Source: Acrocarpospora corrugata
GTDB taxonomy: Bacteria; Actinomycetota; Actinomycetes; Streptosporangiales; Streptosporangiaceae
Assembly: GCF_009687845.1 (NCBI RefSeq)
Contig: NZ_BLAD01000040.1
Location: 97,666 to 161,665 of the forward strand
Length of the DNA stretch: 64,000 nt
Direction: 5' to 3'
Shown here: one piece after another, positions 17,975 to 24,347 of the stretch
Numbering within the stretch: the stretch's first letter is position 1
Layout of the letters: each line of letters starts with the position of its first letter
Notes under the pieces: model-generated
Database searches by the model: none
What the model saw: the letters and a program-made list of their open reading frames with translations, nothing else
Told to the model about the DNA's origin: nothing
Translations under genes and position numbers: made by a program

Positions 17975-18784
17975 TCAGTGCCGCAGGGAGGCGAACAGCG
18001 TCACCCACTGGTCGGGATGGACGAACGCCACCACCGTGTCCCGGGCGATGCCGGCCAGGTCGAAGGCCGGGCCGGCATCGCCGTAGTGCCGGTGGAGCGA
18101 GGCGTACAGCGATCCGCCGACGCCGGAGAAGCCCAGCTCCACCAGCTCCTGCCAGGCTGCGCCGTCGTGGACCAGCGGTTCGGGCCGCCGCTCGATCCGC
18201 AGGATCGCCGAGTCGACGGACGGGACGGGCCGGAAGCTGTCCCTGCCGATCCGGCCGAGCAGCTCCCACGAGAACCACGGCCAGCTCTCCACCGTCACCA
18301 GGCTCCACCTGCCGAAGTCGCCGCTCCGCTTGCGGGCGTACTCCAGCTGGGTGAGCAGGGTGGCGGAGGTCAGCTCCGGCGCCCGGAGGCACCAGTCCAC
18401 GATCTCGGAGGTGATCGAGTACGGGATGTTCCCCACCACCGCGAACGGTTCCCGCGGCGGCCGGATCGTGGTGAAGTCGGCCTTGACGATCTTCAGTTTG
18501 GTCCTGGCCCTGAGTTCGGCCACCAGCAGCGGGTCGATCTCGTAGCCCACGACCTCGGCGCCCGTTCCGGCCAGGGCTGTCGTGAGTACTCCCCTACCGG
18601 CGCCCGGTTCGAGAATGAGGCCGCTCGGCCGGGCCGCCTTGACCACCATTTCCACGGCATGGCGATCGACCAGGAAGTTCTGCGACAGTTCACGCCGCGC
18701 CCGATCTCTGGGCGTGCGGCCGCCGCCGTTCCTGACCTTCTTCTGGGTGTGTGAATAGTTTCCGTGCGCGAAATTCTGCGCCAC
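17975..18784 (-). CDS. erm: 23S rRNA adenine-N6 methyltransferase, Erm family
   Basis: GTG 18784 is preceded by GAGAGGG eleven bases upstream. The 269-residue protein has the basic N-terminal tail typical of actinobacterial Erm enzymes, 'LSQNFLVD' (33-40), SAM motif I 'EPGAGRGVL' (59-67), the acidic 'YEIDP', and the catalytic 'NIPYSITS' (119-126). Erm enzymes methylate A2058 of 23S rRNA and block macrolide, lincosamide and streptogramin B binding. It lies downstream of a glycosyltransferase gene, behind a short leader ORF and hairpins that suggest antibiotic-inducible translation. KsgA is the main alternative, but the sequence around motif IV and the context favour Erm. Confidence 0.88.
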   Translation of the reverse strand: MAQNFAHGNYSHTQKKVRNGGGRTPRDRARRELSQNFLVDRHAVEMVVKAARPSGLILEPGAGRGVLTTALAGTGAEVVGYEIDPLLVAELRARTKLKIVKADFTTIRPPREPFAVVGNIPYSITSEIVDWCLRAPELTSATLLTQLEYARKRSGDFGRWSLVTVESWPWFSWELLGRIGRDSFRPVPSVDSAILRIERRPEPLVHDGAAWQELVELGFSGVGGSLYASLHRHYGDAGPAFDLAGIARDTVVAFVHPDQWVTLFASLRH

Positions 18785-18793
18785 AGCAAAAAG

Positions 18794-18871
18794 CCCTCTC
18801 GGGTCCTCGAGATGAATGGGATCTCGATGGGCCCTGGGCTCGCGTCCTGCGAAGCTAGCGAGCCAGAGCCC
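18794..18871 (-). promoter_or_regulatory. attenuator-like hairpin region between leader peptide and erm
   Basis: Three pairings are visible on the transcribed strand. Stem 1 joins 18858-18871 (the last codons of the leader) with 18829-18843: 14 pairs, one G-U and one bulge. Stem 2 joins 18821-18827 with 18807-18813: 7 perfect pairs. Stem 3 joins 18808-18812 with 18797-18801: 5 pairs overlapping the erm ribosome site GAGAGGG. Stems 2 and 3 share an arm and exclude each other. This is the architecture of erm translational attenuators; which fold is the ground state needs a folding calculation. Confidence 0.65.
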
Positions 18872-18908
18872 GGCTGCTGCGCATACGAATCATGCAGATG
18901 CAGTACAT
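18855..18908 (-). CDS. erm leader peptide MYCICMIRMRSSRALAR
   Basis: A 17-codon ORF (ATG 18908 to TAG 18855) starts 10 bases after the glycosyltransferase stop and ends 70 bases before erm. Residues 8-10 are Arg-Met-Arg, matching the +x+ motif (Arg/Lys-x-Arg/Lys) known to arrest ribosomes in the presence of macrolides in ErmD-type leaders. Its last five codons form one arm of a strong hairpin. The ribosome site is weak. Being so short it could be chance, but position, motif and structure agree. Confidence 0.7.
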   Translation of the reverse strand: MYCICMIRMRSSRALAR

Positions 18909-18918
18909 GCGGATGAGG

Positions 18919-20064
18919 CTACGAAGGATCCGCCGGAGGCGCGACATATTTTTCGCCGGCGAACTCCATGATCGCCTCCGCGGCCAGGTCCGGGCCGTCG
19001 ACCTGGTCGTACCAGGATTTGATCAGCCGCGCGGCGGCGCGATGGGACTCGCTGGCAAGCAGCTTGTCGGCCTGCGGGCCGACCTGGTCGAGGTCGATCA
19101 GCTCCGCCGCCCCGAGCCGCTGGAGCAGGCCGACATTGTGCTGCTGCTCAGGCTGGAGGGGCACCGCGATGAGCGGCGTCCCGGACGCCATCGCGGTCTG
19201 GACGCTGCCCTGCCCGCCCGTGGTGATCGCGAGGTCGACCCTCGGCATGATCAGGTGGCTCGGCAGCACGCCCTCCACCAGCACGTCGTCTCCGGCCAGA
19301 TCGGACAGGTCGTGTACGGTCGCCGCGACCAGCACCCGGGTGCGCAACTGCCCGACGATGCGCCTGATCAGGTCGGGCGGCGCGGACGTGAGCGCGACGT
19401 AGACGACCGGTCCGGGCAGGTCCAGGAACGCGGACACCCGCTCAGGAACCGGCAGGTCGAGGTGGGCGAACAGCGGGCCGGTGTAGCGGAACCCGTCCCC
19501 CAGCTCATCGGCGGGGAGGCCGAGCACCTGCGGCACCTCGGTGACGAGCGTCAGGTCGCCGCACAGCAGTTCGGGCAGGCTGCGGATCCCGGGCACGCCG
19601 AGTTCGGCGGCCACCCGGTTGAAGCCGGCGCAGTATCCGGTGACCTCCATGACCCTCGGTTCGAGCACGGGGGGCACCCAGCTGCCCGCGTGCTCGGCCA
19701 CCAGCTTGATCCCGGCCAGCCGGGTGGACAGCAGCGTGCTCAGCGCGAACCCGCTGACCGCGACCGTGACGCCGTGCTCCCGGAAGTACGCGGCCTCGGC
19801 CAGCGCGTGCTCGCGCAGCTCGTCGTCGCCGTACATGCTCTGGTCCGGCGGGCCGAGCCCGATGCCGTTCCGGACGAAGCTGGCGCAGCGTTCGTGGTCC
19901 ATACGCGGCTCGATGATGTCGCAGGGCACCCGGAGCTGGTTCTCGTGCGTGCCGCCGTGGGTGGCGATCCTGACCTGGGCGCCACGGCGGCGGAGCGCGC
20001 GGTAGAGGTCCAGCATCCGCGAGGTCTCCGACAGGTATCCGCAATGGGGGACAAGGGCGATCAT
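18919..20064 (-). CDS. GT1/MGT-family glycosyltransferase
   Basis: ATG 20064 ('MIALVPHCGY') gives 381 residues. The fold is the two-domain GT-B type; the donor-binding signature region reads 'TTGGQGS' (281-287) and 'PEQQHN' (305-310). Most family members have His in the first motif (THGGxGS), so the donor site is unusual. Macrolide glycosyltransferases (Mgt/Ole type) and natural-product glycosyltransferases belong here. Co-transcription with erm and divergence from marR suggest drug inactivation by glycosylation, but natural-product tailoring is not excluded. The promoter places the start at or next to the ATG, so the mRNA is probably leaderless. Confidence 0.75.
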   Translation of the reverse strand: MIALVPHCGYLSETSRMLDLYRALRRRGAQVRIATHGGTHENQLRVPCDIIEPRMDHERCASFVRNGIGLGPPDQSMYGDDELREHALAEAAYFREHGVTVAVSGFALSTLLSTRLAGIKLVAEHAGSWVPPVLEPRVMEVTGYCAGFNRVAAELGVPGIRSLPELLCGDLTLVTEVPQVLGLPADELGDGFRYTGPLFAHLDLPVPERVSAFLDLPGPVVYVALTSAPPDLIRRIVGQLRTRVLVAATVHDLSDLAGDDVLVEGVLPSHLIMPRVDLAITTGGQGSVQTAMASGTPLIAVPLQPEQQHNVGLLQRLGAAELIDLDQVGPQADKLLASESHRAAARLIKSWYDQVDGPDLAAEAIMEFAGEKYVAPPADPS

Positions 20065-20066
20065 AT

Positions 20067-20084
20067 TAGGTAATATATTGCCTA
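20067..20084. promoter_or_regulatory. MarR operator overlapping two divergent leaderless promoters
   Basis: The palindrome TAGGTAATATATTGCCTA matches in 8 of 9 pairs and fills the 19-base gap between the glycosyltransferase ATG (20064) and marR ATG (20084). For marR, GGGACA (20048-20053), a 17-base spacer and TAATAT (20071-20076) form a promoter. For the other strand, TTGTAC (20100-20095), 17 bases and TATATT (20077-20072) do the same. Both -10 boxes lie inside the palindrome, so a MarR dimer would block both genes. Confidence 0.8.
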
Positions 20085-20524
20085 TGTCTGAGCCGTACAA
20101 GGCCCCCGAGCCGCACGTGCACGCGTTCCGGGCGGTTCTCGCCCTCGCCCAGCGGCTGCGCTACCTGATGGACGACCGGCTGCGCGGGGACGGGCTCACC
20201 ACGCAGCAGGCCGCGCTGCTGACCGTGGTGGAGGCGCTCGGCGAACCGTCGCTCAAGGAGGCGGCGGCCGGGCTCGGCAGCACGCACCAGAATGTCGCCC
20301 AGCTCGTCGCGTCCCTGGAGCGCAAGGGGATGCTCCAGATCGCCGCCGACCCGGCCGACCGGCGCAGGCGCAGGCTGGTGACGACCTCGGCCAACGCGGA
20401 GTACTGGCGCGAGCGGAACATCGGCGACCACGCGACGGTCGCCACCTGGTTCTCCGGGCTCAGCCCCGGCGAACTGGAGACGCTGTGCGGGCTCCTCGAC
20501 CGCGTCCTCACCGATCTGAAGTGA
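20084..20524 (+). CDS. MarR-family transcriptional regulator
   Basis: The 146-residue protein has the MarR winged helix: 'LTTQQAALLTVVEALGEPSLKEAAAGLGSTHQNVAQLVASLERKG' region with the recognition helix near residues 65-80, and the wing with 'DPADRRRRRL'. The family are dimers released from DNA by small ligands. The 18-bp palindrome at its own start makes autoregulation and control of the glycosyltransferase-erm operon very likely. Confidence 0.9.
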   Translation: MSEPYKAPEPHVHAFRAVLALAQRLRYLMDDRLRGDGLTTQQAALLTVVEALGEPSLKEAAAGLGSTHQNVAQLVASLERKGMLQIAADPADRRRRRLVTTSANAEYWRERNIGDHATVATWFSGLSPGELETLCGLLDRVLTDLK

Positions 20525-21907: not shown

Positions 21908-23111
21908 TCAGGGGCGTCGCTGATCATCGGCCGGCAGCTCCGACGCGGCCGGGAGCGGCGGCTCAGGCTGGAGCGGCGGCTCAGGCTGGAGCGGCGGCTC
22001 AGGCTGGAGCGGCCGCGCGAAGGGGCGGCCGGCGGCGACGAGGGCGTCCACGGCCCGGACCGCGGTGGCCAGGCGCTTCTCGTGCGTTCCGCTCACGACG
22101 ACGTGCGGCAGTCCGGCGAGTTCGTGGCGGAAGCGCAGGTCCATCGCATGGCGGATGTGCTCGCCGTCGCGCCAGCCGTCCTGCTCGAACGGCATGCCGT
22201 CCACGCTCGTGTGGATCCACAGGTCGTGCCGGGCCCGCTCGTCGACGCGGAGGACCTCCTGGCTCACCGTGCCGAGGTAGCGTTCGTGCCGGAGGGCCGT
22301 GCTGAGGGCGTCTGTGTCGCAGAACAGCAGCGGGGATCCCACCCGCGCGGCCGCCTCCTCCCACGCGAGCTGCCTCTCCGCGATCAGCGTGAACTCCGCC
22401 GGATCCCACCGGAGGTCGTCCAGCCAGGGTTCCGGCTCTCCCGCCGCCTTGGCGGTCCGGCGGGCCACGGCCAGTTTTTCCTCGCAGTACGTCCTGCCGT
22501 ATTCGGGCACCCAGCGGGTCGTGGCCCAGACGCCGCCGCGAGCCGAGTAGTGCTCCGCGAGCGCGCGGGCGAGGGTGGTCGTGCCGGTCGACTCGGCGCC
22601 TGCGACCACCACGCGCCAGGCGAGATGGGCTCGCACGGCCGGGGTCAGCCAGGGCCAGCCGGCCACGGGGTCCGCCCGGACCAGAGCGCCGCTCACCGGG
22701 TGACGTTCCCGCCCGGGGTCGACCGCGACGTGCTCGGCCGCGAACCTGCGGGCCAGTTCGGGGCCGTACGCCTCGGAGGAGAACACGGCGTCGACCTCGG
22801 GGCCTCGCGCGCCGTGGGCCAGCGCCAGCGCGTGCCGGAACACCTCGACGTGCGCGGCCCAGATCTCCGGGTCGTCGTAGTCGATCTCGATGTCGTCGAC
22901 AACGGGCGCCACGACCACGTTCGGCTGCGGGTGCGCTTCCCGTAGCCAGGCCGTCCGGCAGGCCAGGGGGATGCTCTCCACGCTCGACGCCGCCACGATC
23001 ACGGTGACGAGGGCGCAGCGGGTGGCGGCGGGTGTCGATGAGGTGGTGGTGACCGGCGTGCGGTGGATAGAACTTGCCGACTATGAGACCGCGCGCGTGC
23101 GTACCGGTCAT
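21908..23111 (-). pseudogene. nadR: NadR-like NMN adenylyltransferase/nicotinamide riboside kinase, frameshifted
   Basis: ATG 23111 opens '[26 protein letters not shown]', with the nucleotidyltransferase motif GKFxPxHxGH. After about 26 codons the reading jumps frame; one extra C in 'gacaccc' (about 23031) explains it. The second frame gives the rest: the adenylyltransferase body and a kinase domain with Walker A 'GAESTGTTT', to the stop at 21908. A repaired product would be about 400 residues. NadR makes NAD from imported nicotinamide riboside. Its ATG overlaps the pnuC stop. Before the stop, three copies of a 6-residue unit EPPLQP are encoded. Confidence 0.8.
21952..22013. repeat. 18-bp tandem repeat in the nadR 3' end
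   Basis: GGAGCGGCGGCTCAGGCT is repeated three times and part of a fourth without error. On the gene strand it encodes a Pro/Glu-rich tail (LQPEPP units). Such in-frame units expand and contract by slippage. Confidence 0.9.
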
Positions 23112-23498
23112 GTGGCGGGCACCGCGGCGGGAGCGGGCCGGGCGGCCAGGTCGTGGCGCCAGGCGCGCAGCCCGGCGACGCACAACGCCAGGAAGAGCAC
23201 GTAAAGGGCGCTGGTGAGATAGAGCTCCTTGTACGCGTAAAGCGGGATGTAGATCAGGTCGGCGGCGAGACGATCTGCAGTGCGGCGTCCGCGTACAGGC
23301 CGACGGTCAGGAACACGAGCCCGAGCAGGATGACGTTCGCCACCCCGATCGGCCAGTTCCAGACGTGCTGGCGGACCACCAGCCAGACGGTGAGCGCCCC
23401 TGTCGCGAACCCGAGTAACTCGGCCCAGCTGGTCGAGACGCCACCGAGGGTGATCGCGGGCTCCAGCAGGGACCCAGCACATCGGACAGCGCCACCAT
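23108..23498 (-). pseudogene. pnuC: PnuC-like nicotinamide riboside transporter remnant
   Basis: ATG 23498 has GGAGG a few bases upstream. The reading starts '[10 protein letters not shown]', shifts frame at about 23478 (one base missing), continues '[20 protein letters not shown]...[10 protein letters not shown]', then jumps to '[23 protein letters not shown]' and ends at 23108. The middle of the transporter, roughly 90 residues, is missing at about 23268. PnuC has seven helices and about 210-230 residues, so this copy cannot work. Its stop overlaps the nadR start (ATGA), showing an ancestral pnuC-nadR operon. Confidence 0.75.
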
Positions 23499-23508
23499 GA
23501 CCTCCATA

Positions 23509-23525
23509 ATCGTCCAAATGACGAT
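23509..23525. promoter_or_regulatory. palindrome upstream of pnuC
   Basis: ATCGTC-CAAAT-GACGAT is a perfect 6+6 inverted repeat lying 11 bases upstream of the pnuC start. Position suggests an operator, possibly of an NAD-metabolism regulator, but I cannot match it to a known consensus. Confidence 0.4.
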
Positions 23526-23578
23526 AACAGCCGGTGGCGATCAGTGGAAATGTCGACCTATCTCGCCCGGGGACGGCG

Positions 23579-23609
23579 TCGCCCCGCGAGAGGCTTCCCC
23601 GCGGGGCGA
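23579..23609 (-). terminator. hairpin terminator after the DWDD peptide gene
   Basis: TCGCCCCGCG and CGCGGGGCGA pair perfectly across an 11-base loop, 26 bases past the small peptide gene and before the pnuC promoter. Confidence 0.7.
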
Positions 23610-23634
23610 ACAGGACTGGGACGTGGCGTGATCT

Positions 23635-23766
23635 CTACCAGTCGTCGTCCCAGTCATCGTCCCAGTCGTCGTCCCAGTCGTCGTCCCAGTCCATGTGCAG
23701 GGTCGGCGACACGGCCAGCACGGCCAGCGCCAGCAGGACGCCGGTACCGATGAGTCGTCTGTGCAT
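23635..23766 (-). CDS. small secreted peptide ending in Asp-Trp repeats
   Basis: ATG 23766 has GGAG eight bases upstream. The 43-residue product starts 'MHRRLIGTGVLLALAVLAV', a typical signal peptide, and the mature part after about residue 22 is essentially four and a half copies of the 4-residue unit DWDD. The tail is extremely acidic with evenly spaced Trp. I know no described family; it could bind cations, modify the cell surface, or be a ribosomal peptide precursor, although no modifying enzyme is adjacent. It has its own terminator and looks monocistronic. Confidence 0.65.
   Translation of the reverse strand: MHRRLIGTGVLLALAVLAVSPTLHMDWDDDWDDDWDDDWDDDW
23638..23693. repeat. 12-bp tandem repeat encoding DWDD
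   Basis: The 12-base unit GTCGTCCCAGTC recurs about four and a half times with one substitution. It is coding on the minus strand. Confidence 0.9.
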
Positions 23767-23906
23767 GAGAATCACTCCATAACCGGACTCGTCCGGGCCC
23801 TGAGGCCACCAGCCCTGGGACCACGGAGCGTCGCAATGGATTTCCCGGGATTGGCCAGCACGGCGCATGATTCAAATTCCAGGCTAAGCACGAAATCAGC
23901 GGAAGG

Positions 23907-24347
23907 TCACCCGCGAGAAGGCAAATCCCCAGCATGAGTACGGGCAACGATCGAGCCCACTGTCTCGGGAGACGAGGCTTCGCCTGGGCCCACCCGGGCT
24001 GCCAGTTGATCGCGGAGCCGGGCCAGGCGGGCGATCTCCTCGTTCAGGGCGGCGATCCGGCGCTGCGCGACCCCGGTGGGTTTCGCGCACGGGCCCGGCG
24101 CTCCGTACGGCGGGAGTGTGTCCTCTTCCAGCAGGTCCAGGCGGTCCGCGCAGTCACGCAAGTCCGCCACGGTGAGCCCGAGCGAGAGCAGCTCCCGGAT
24201 GACGCGGACGCGGGCGACGTCCCGTGGGCCGTACTGGCGCTGGCCGGTGACGGATCGGCGCGGCGGGGGCAGCAGGCCGTTCTGCTCGTAGAAGCGCAGG
24301 GCGCGGGGTGTGGTCCCGGCCGCTGCCGCCGCGTCGCCGATCCGCAT
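23907..24347 (-). CDS. MerR-family transcriptional regulator
   Basis: GGAGG precedes ATG 24347. The 146-residue protein begins 'MRIGDAAAAAGTTPRALRFYEQNGLLPPPRR', a canonical MerR helix-turn-helix and wing, followed by a dimer helix and a Cys ('PCAKPTG') near residue 100. It lies 14 bases downstream of an MDR oxidoreductase on the same strand, so the two are probably co-transcribed. Confidence 0.9.
   Translation of the reverse strand: MRIGDAAAAAGTTPRALRFYEQNGLLPPPRRSVTGQRQYGPRDVARVRVIRELLSLGLTVADLRDCADRLDLLEEDTLPPYGAPGPCAKPTGVAQRRIAALNEEIARLARLRDQLAARVGPGEASSPETVGSIVARTHAGDLPSRG

Follow-up and report, generated by a model that had tools for sequence, protein, structure and literature searches.

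What does the locus encode? Within the window, by which we mean the whole stretch of 64,000 nucleotides analysed from the 9.27-Mb genome of Acrocarpospora corrugata, the minus strand carries an open reading frame (ORF) whose 43-residue product reads MHRRLIGTGVLLALAVLAVSPTLHMDWDDDWDDDWDDDWDDDW, with the stop codon directly after the last residue; a Shine-Dalgarno (SD) sequence, GGAG, lies at 23778-23775, 8 nt ahead of the ATG (Table 1). The product and its ribosome site are as the original prediction described them, and so is the tail of about four and a half DWDD units encoded by a 12-bp tandem repeat: Tandem Repeats Finder (TRF) reports a period of 12 and 4.5 copies and ranks this repeat second by score among its 57 rows for the 64 kb. 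The strongest tandem repeat of the window, at 21952-22013 (18 bp, 3.4 copies, score 124), encodes PEPPLQ units near the C-terminus of an AAA/NadR-like protein. The terminator that was predicted to close the gene stands in part, in that a strong 13-bp hairpin follows the stop codon, but it has no T-run, and a scan of 23450-24000 returned no T-run terminator. The window peptide is without a clear AxA cleavage site, and its N-terminus could therefore stay as a membrane anchor; in some homologues AxA-type sites can be read by eye, between APASA and IRTRGG and between APASA and RLRGG.

Table 1. Features of the DWDD peptide locus, in window positions
Feature	Position	Strand	Basis or remark
43-aa peptide gene	23635..23766	-	ATG 23766-23764, stop 23637-23635; translation and homologues
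N-terminal signal-like segment, residues 1-25, MHRRLIGTGVLLALAVLAVSPTLHM	23692..23766	-	translation; start common to the A6 alignment
DWDD tail, 12-bp tandem repeat, 4.5 copies	23638..23691	-	TRF score 101 and translation
13-bp hairpin past the stop codon, possible terminator without U-run	23579..23609	-	-26.4 kcal/mol, z -3.76
5' leader (predicted)	23767..23874	-	conservation; transcript start placed by inference ~7 nt past the -10
Conserved leader core GGAAATCCATTGCGACGCTCCGT; CGACGCTCCGT = 23833-23823	23823..23845	-	invariant bases in four genomes and in the family
Shine-Dalgarno segment AUGGAGUG	23773..23780	-	complementary to core CGCUCCGU: 8 pairs, two of them G-U
Position of 5' hairpin P1 (GCGCC-GUGCU-GGCC)	23852..23866	-	cut to 3 bp in the window copy
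Variable inner region, anti-SD to SD	23784..23822	-	z -0.41 here; family mean z -1.65
-10-like TAGCCT	23881..23886	-	sequence; box picked as best match
-35-like GTGACC, 18 nt before the -10	23905..23910	-	alignments; overlaps end of MerR-type gene
Conserved TTTGCC upstream of the -35	23920..23925	-	alignments; inside MerR-type gene

Is the ORF a real gene? It could instead be an ORF that arose by chance as a 12-bp repeat expanded, a reading favoured by the almost perfect repeat of the window copy and left untouched by pN/pS, which is uninformative here: the signal part gives 0.69 in frame versus 0.67 in frame +1 and 1.57 in the other frame, and the coding frame is not singled out. Against a chance frame, homologues with degraded repeats keep the start, the SD and the composition, and sister peptides with unrelated tails have the same start. 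We regard it as extremely improbable and judge from these comparisons that the ORF is a real gene. Protein search by itself was enough to bring up homologues in 3 of 60 relatives (two genomes of the same genus and one of another genus), all with the same start, SD and tail chemistry and all with the leader described below; two more matches, at E 0.05-0.07, are not homologues. Homologues that keep both start and signal are what the original prediction of a secreted peptide called for, and they point to an Asp/Trp-tailed product that is probably secreted or membrane-anchored.

Ten further peptides of this Asp/Trp (DW) type were reached via the leader, making 13 with that of the window. They are carried by three of five Acrocarpospora genomes and by 10 of the 11 Sphaerisporangium genomes listed, among them S. 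melleum, S. corydalis, S. album, S. fuscum, S. perillae and S. sp. TRM90804; the other two Acrocarpospora genomes have no match by the DW profile or by the leader model R1 (below). Compared between species, with one genome per species, the 13 peptides are 41-50 aa long, and their tails are 57-82% Asp and 18-35% Trp, Tyr or Phe, with no fixed pattern of Asp spacing. DNA identity at a lag of 12 is 0.95 in the window copy versus 0.62-0.85 in the other 12; only the window copy has a near-perfect 12-bp period, so that it is composition that has been kept and not the DNA repeat. The DW profile was built from the 13 and finds the same 13 among 341 family genomes (E<=2e-15), and so adds no new member; the best E among the next 15 genomes is 6e-5. 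Four of these 15 were inspected. Three matches are unrelated proteins with a similar start, and the fourth (L238, at G185:C30:60500-61100) is a secreted-looking peptide rich in D, W and Y, ...YDDWGYDDWDDDYYYDDYYYDDWDDGYWDDDY..., whose signal differs. Its genome has no leader match, which argues that D/W/Y tail chemistry is not tied to the leader; this chemistry seems to have arisen more than once.

What do the DW loci share beyond the peptide? A predicted promoter and a leader of about 100 nt, both resting on conservation, recur in 13 of 13 DW loci, with a core, CGACGCUCCGU, that is complementary to the Shine-Dalgarno site. Across the four genomes compared first, the upstream region is more conserved than the peptide and includes CGGGAA and 17 consecutive invariant bases, CCATTGCGACGCTCCGT. 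Downstream of the promoter, P1 is followed by the core CGACGCUCC and, across a variable stretch, by the SD segment ACGGAGUGAU. When 62 non-redundant leaders were anchored on the best TANNNT box within 26 bases, all three fixed bases were present in 56 of the 62, a count that is partly a product of the construction, and columns far upstream of the box came into register, with TT near -38 from the box, then a C-rich stretch resembling TTTGCC, then GG near -25.

How far does this leader extend, and does it always precede a peptide gene? Searched with at most 3 mismatches, the 23-base pattern was located in 13 of 250 family genomes, versus 2 for the reversed control; a small signal-bearing peptide follows in 11 of the 13 pattern loci, L024 and L033 being the exceptions. 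Across 84,980 species genomes the pattern scan returned 14 stretches. The ten in Streptosporangiaceae are each followed by such a peptide, of the DW type in seven cases and of other types in two Nonomuraea and one Sinosporangium; the four in unrelated bacteria have no such peptide after them. A covariance model, R1, made from 13 leaders over 140 positions and applied at a cut-off of E<=0.01, gave 133 places in 76 of 341 family genomes, all of which were looked at. The window leader scores E 4.4e-33 with R1, its copy having been in the training set. R1 has one match in each of three Acrocarpospora genomes; of four further weak matches in the genome of the window, two were inspected and rejected (L187, L196).

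At E<=1e-4 R1 retains 110 places, and an SD-started ORF stands in the expected position in every one of them. By a simple hydropathy rule 109 of these ORFs are signal-like, and the other, L077, is so by eye. The same rule passes 0/110 ORFs in frame +1, 0/110 in frame +2 and 4/57 other SD-ATG ORFs of the same loci. Those ORFs whose end was seen are short, 105 of the 110 ending within 203 aa; the other five (L080, L081, L082, L086, L087) reach the edge of the fetched DNA, and their length is open-ended. Among the weaker places 12 of 22 pass the signal rule, and the last one, G091, passes by eye, so that 123 of the 133 leader places lead into a signal-bearing ORF, in 68 of 341 genomes and 15 of 68 genera. 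A second model, R2, built on 101 matches, adds five family genomes (G009, G122, G143, G162, G177) and makes false matches inside the family in G113 and G010. Applied to 345 genomes of the class, R2 matched 34, of which 24 lie outside the family (best E 3e-5), and 0 of 8 inspected places outside the family lead into such a peptide. Our searches of open-licence papers turned up none on this leader or peptide family.

The R1 match, the SD and the signal-like ORF start are all present at the window gene, which places it in the leader-linked family of predicted secreted peptides. That a peptide family with a shared leader exists is nearly certain. The original prediction knew of no family like the DWDD peptide, and as far as reference collections go this holds, the peptide having no Pfam or NCBIfam match, but a family does exist in genomes; the shared leader and the sister peptides of different composition had been overlooked. 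The collections likewise name none of the family members compared with them: 0 of 10 reach the Pfam cut-off and 0 of 8 the NCBIfam cut-off, the closest NCBIfam model being CU044_5270 (19.6 bits versus 100), and the NCBIfam rodlin model reaches E 0.39 and 10.7 bits, versus a cut-off of 75, over residues 3-32 of one sister.

The tails of the 110 members were sorted by a simple rule set into Cys4 (37; for example CRWRHGCKYCKWGGEWHRVWC), acidic DW (13), acidic ends (12, a class that takes in some Arg/Glu-rich members), Arg/Glu-rich (8), His/Lys-rich (6), RRxFV (5), polyQ (4), NRNEN (4), HW (4), polyS (3), polyG (3), FH (2), FNPYG (2), polyN (1) and other (6, among them the plainly basic L079). The nearest leader in another genome belongs to the same tail class in 94 of 110 cases versus 16.6 expected, kinship being ignored in that expectation, and on this evidence the classes look like old lineages and not freshly swapped tails. 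Members found together in one genome make 77 pairs, and in 72 of these the classes differ. Six of the ten DW-bearing Sphaerisporangium genomes also hold a basic member, with net charges of -7 to -12 beside +15 to +25, and one Sphaerisporangium (G184) holds five leader-linked peptides (L048, L079, L101, L111, L227): DW acidic, His/Lys basic, polyS, Cys4 and His/Gly/Tyr-rich. Leaders in genera g82 and g59 (L074, L075, L078, L083, L085, L090, L096, L100, L115) measure about 200 nt and include a long additional stretch that is folded; the peptide genes there come as tandem pairs, 0.8-1.8 kb apart, whose tails differ.

This diversity bears on the possibility that the DWDD tail is a calcium or lanthanide binder whose Asp clusters and Trp would scavenge or buffer cations at the cell surface. 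A tail of 57-82% Asp with Trp, Tyr or Phe in 13 of 13 members is what such a role would ask for, but the spacing of Asp is not fixed across species, and some sisters behind the same leader have basic, polyQ or polyS tails, so that metal binding cannot be what unites the family. As the function of the DWDD tail we consider it improbable.

Do the neighbouring genes point to a function? The ten ORFs around the window gene are PnuC-like, AAA/NadR-like (AAA from Pfam, NadR as an assigned label), MerR, ADH, luciferase-like, TetR, P450, UDG, DUF998 and glycosyltransferase. By eye, the PnuC-like and NadR-like genes, at 23108-23517 and 21908-23183 on the minus strand, look split across frames: one ORF matches PF04973 only over profile positions 1-54 of 175, and what resembles its continuation is read in another frame. 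These may be either pseudogenes or sequencing errors. Also by eye, a putative 23S rRNA adenine methyltransferase ORF lies beside the PF04101 glycosyltransferase at 17975-20100 (minus strand), a pair that resembles a macrolide self-resistance pair. Elsewhere, the S. perillae peptide lies between a cytochrome bd gene and a DUF1996 gene, the ORF on the DUF1996 side recurs in most of the Sphaerisporangium loci compared, and the A. macrocephala peptide has a sortase gene about 0.4 kb upstream. The ORF adjoining the S. corydalis peptide encodes a haem-oxygenase-like enzyme (PF14518), a 69% relative of which adjoins the S. melleum peptide while another lies farther off in S. perillae. Among the flanks compared, nothing is common to these loci and the window. 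A CydX-like role, suggested by the cytochrome bd gene beside a Sphaerisporangium locus, was dropped because the Acrocarpospora neighbours differ.

The neighbours also bear on whether the products are antimicrobial or signalling peptides, bacteriocin-like or modified, in which a constant signal would be joined to a variable active part and the leader would time release. The constant signal and variable mature part, with several different members per genome, fit this reading, as does the resemblance of the Cys4 cores to small disulfide peptides. Haem-oxygenase-like enzymes occur in natural-product pathways, and the PF14518 gene beside the S. corydalis DW peptide keeps a modified-peptide reading alive; it is the one such gene among seven ORFs checked in three other loci. 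Against it, Pfam shows no evident modifying enzyme or exporter among the ten ORFs that flank the window gene, which is weak counter-evidence because P450 and luciferase-like enzymes can serve such pathways. In addition, neighbours differ between genera, and in our judgement the polyQ, polyN, polyS, polyG and DWDD tails are unlike membrane-active peptides. We hold the antimicrobial or signalling reading to be unlikely.

Does the upstream block act as RNA or as DNA? An operator or an alternative sigma promoter of the form GGGAA-N15-CGTC would make it a DNA element and not an RNA leader. GGGAA..CGTC is the type of an ECF promoter consensus, which the block resembles, and RNAalifold finds no covariation, detecting no two-sided change in A4, an alignment of 13 sequences, and predicting no structure at all for A5, which was made from 100 of the 110 loci. 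However, true members may have GGGAA and CGT altered or absent, with a spacing that shifts by several bases, and for this reason the ECF-promoter reading was set aside; moreover, the TANNNT box with its conserved upstream columns lies further up, and the inner region folds better than controls. Over 58 leaders the inner region has a mean z of -1.65 against shuffles (sem 0.13), with 45 of 58 below -1, versus means of -0.08 (11/58 below -1) and -0.18 (12/58) for equal-length upstream and coding controls. A DNA element in place of a leader is quite improbable.

The case for an RNA leader is drawn further from its helices. The duplex between the core and its own SD averages -11.0 kcal/mol, versus -5.4 for other 13-mers of the same leader. 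When core and SD partners were re-dealt the mean was -10.6, with 8 of 1000 permutations as good as the true pairing, a contrast that relatedness can exaggerate. Only 34 of the 62 leaders have no stronger partner for the SD than the core, and outside the core the best 13-mer reaches -10.1 on average; the core locator misplaced the core in a few leaders (L119, L130, L138, L156). Across the P1 and SD helices two-sided changes occur in 7 of 14 pairs (22 cells), a result equalled by 0 of 500 shuffles on an alignment that had been fitted to the structure, and by eye CACCG/CGGUG stands in place of CGCCG/CGGCG in L214 and L228. In genus g86 (L158-L162, L223, L153) an unrelated stem replaces P1, reading GAUCCA/UGGAUC in L158-L162 and AUCGAA/UUCGAU in L153, and the GCGCUCCGU-like core and the SD are mostly kept. 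A two-state switch based on GGCGU:ACGCU pairing was dropped as a general feature because this genus replaces P1 entirely.

Other folding results point the other way. In single-sequence folding of the 62 leaders the predicted SD pairing is 0.80 versus 0.78 in shuffles, and by a crude locator it is mainly with the presumed anti-SD motif in 17 of 62. Folding of the whole leader is weak (mean z -0.70; 5' part alone -0.56), and the window's own leader, with its 3-bp P1, folds no better than shuffles (z 0.40). We regard the RNA structure of the leader as partly supported. Four things can be read from the sequences themselves: the conserved module, how closely it is tied to signal-bearing ORFs, the classes of tail, and the better-than-control folding of an inner region despite its variable sequence.

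How might these elements work together? We propose that the locus product is a short secreted or membrane-tethered acidic-aromatic peptide of a Streptosporangiaceae family defined by a shared module: a TTTGCC element, a sigma70-like promoter, a 5' leader of ~100-200 nt and a conserved signal-peptide start, after which Asp/Trp, His/Lys, polyQ, polyN, polyS, polyG, NRNEN, Arg/Glu or Cys4-core tails may follow. The core CGACGCUCCGU would pair with the Shine-Dalgarno segment ACGGAGUG and hold translation down, and a signal that opens this helix would cause the cell to make the peptide set together. For such translational control by the leader we see the odds as about even. The DWDD product would then be exported or, given a poor cleavage site like that of the window copy, remain anchored, and would form a disordered surface polyanion able to bind cations or basic partners. 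In our best reading, to which we give a probability of roughly 0.45, the leader marks a co-regulated set of secreted, often low-complexity peptides, of which the DWDD peptide is the polyanion.

Genera of the Acrocarpospora and Sphaerisporangium type are spore-forming in habit, and outside the cell the products could serve the envelope of hyphae, spores or sporangia as disordered polymers that are polar or carry opposite charges. A matrix or polyelectrolyte role of this kind, argued from this habit and by analogy with SspA of Actinoplanes (below), is the weakest step of the proposal and is doubtful. More speculative is the idea that in Streptosporangiaceae one previously undescribed structured RNA leader is the common switch for complementary secreted simple-sequence polymers, from polyanion and polycation to polyQ, polyN, polyS, polyG and Cys-rich, mostly of different classes within a genome, that co-assemble, plausibly by charge, into a material of hyphae, spores or sporangia; we think this unlikely. 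What makes up the matrix around actinomycete sporangiospores is reportedly still being worked out (PMC13293333; PMC12691653), and a candidate protein set is for that reason directly testable. A leader common to more than 120 predicted secreted peptides would offer a handle on when and why they are released, and a single label for many short genes whose tails look unrelated. If the products assemble outside the cell, they could serve as compact, genetically tractable models of bacterial low-complexity protein materials.

Finally, the family can be compared with several known systems. The chaplins and rodlins of Streptomyces are small, secreted, multi-copy surface peptides of sporulating actinomycetes. 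The leader-linked peptides are likewise small and multi-copy and are predicted to be secreted; unlike chaplins and rodlins, the DWDD peptide is without such a domain, and the tails of the family differ in composition. A second parallel is SspA of Actinoplanes missouriensis, described in PMC13293333 as a putatively disordered surface protein that is needed for rigid sporangia and has a sortase-dependent wall signal; no such signal is seen in the 43-aa DWDD peptide, and the parallel is one of analogy only. As in translation-controlling riboswitches and RNA thermometers, a conserved segment of the predicted 5' leader is complementary to the Shine-Dalgarno site. Unlike known riboswitches, the leader matches no Rfam 15 family at gathering score, with 0 matches in 8 leader loci and, over window positions 23400-24100, three weak matches that all lie on the opposite strand and far below gathering. 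As in prochlorosins and conotoxins, where a constant N-terminal part is joined to diverse mature peptides, the family combines a constant N-terminal part with a diverse mature part and has several members per genome. We know of no dedicated modifying enzyme for the leader-linked peptides. In contrast to prochlorosins and conotoxins, the N-terminal part here is a Sec-like signal instead of a modification leader, and what is held constant extends beyond the protein to include the promoter and the 5' leader.
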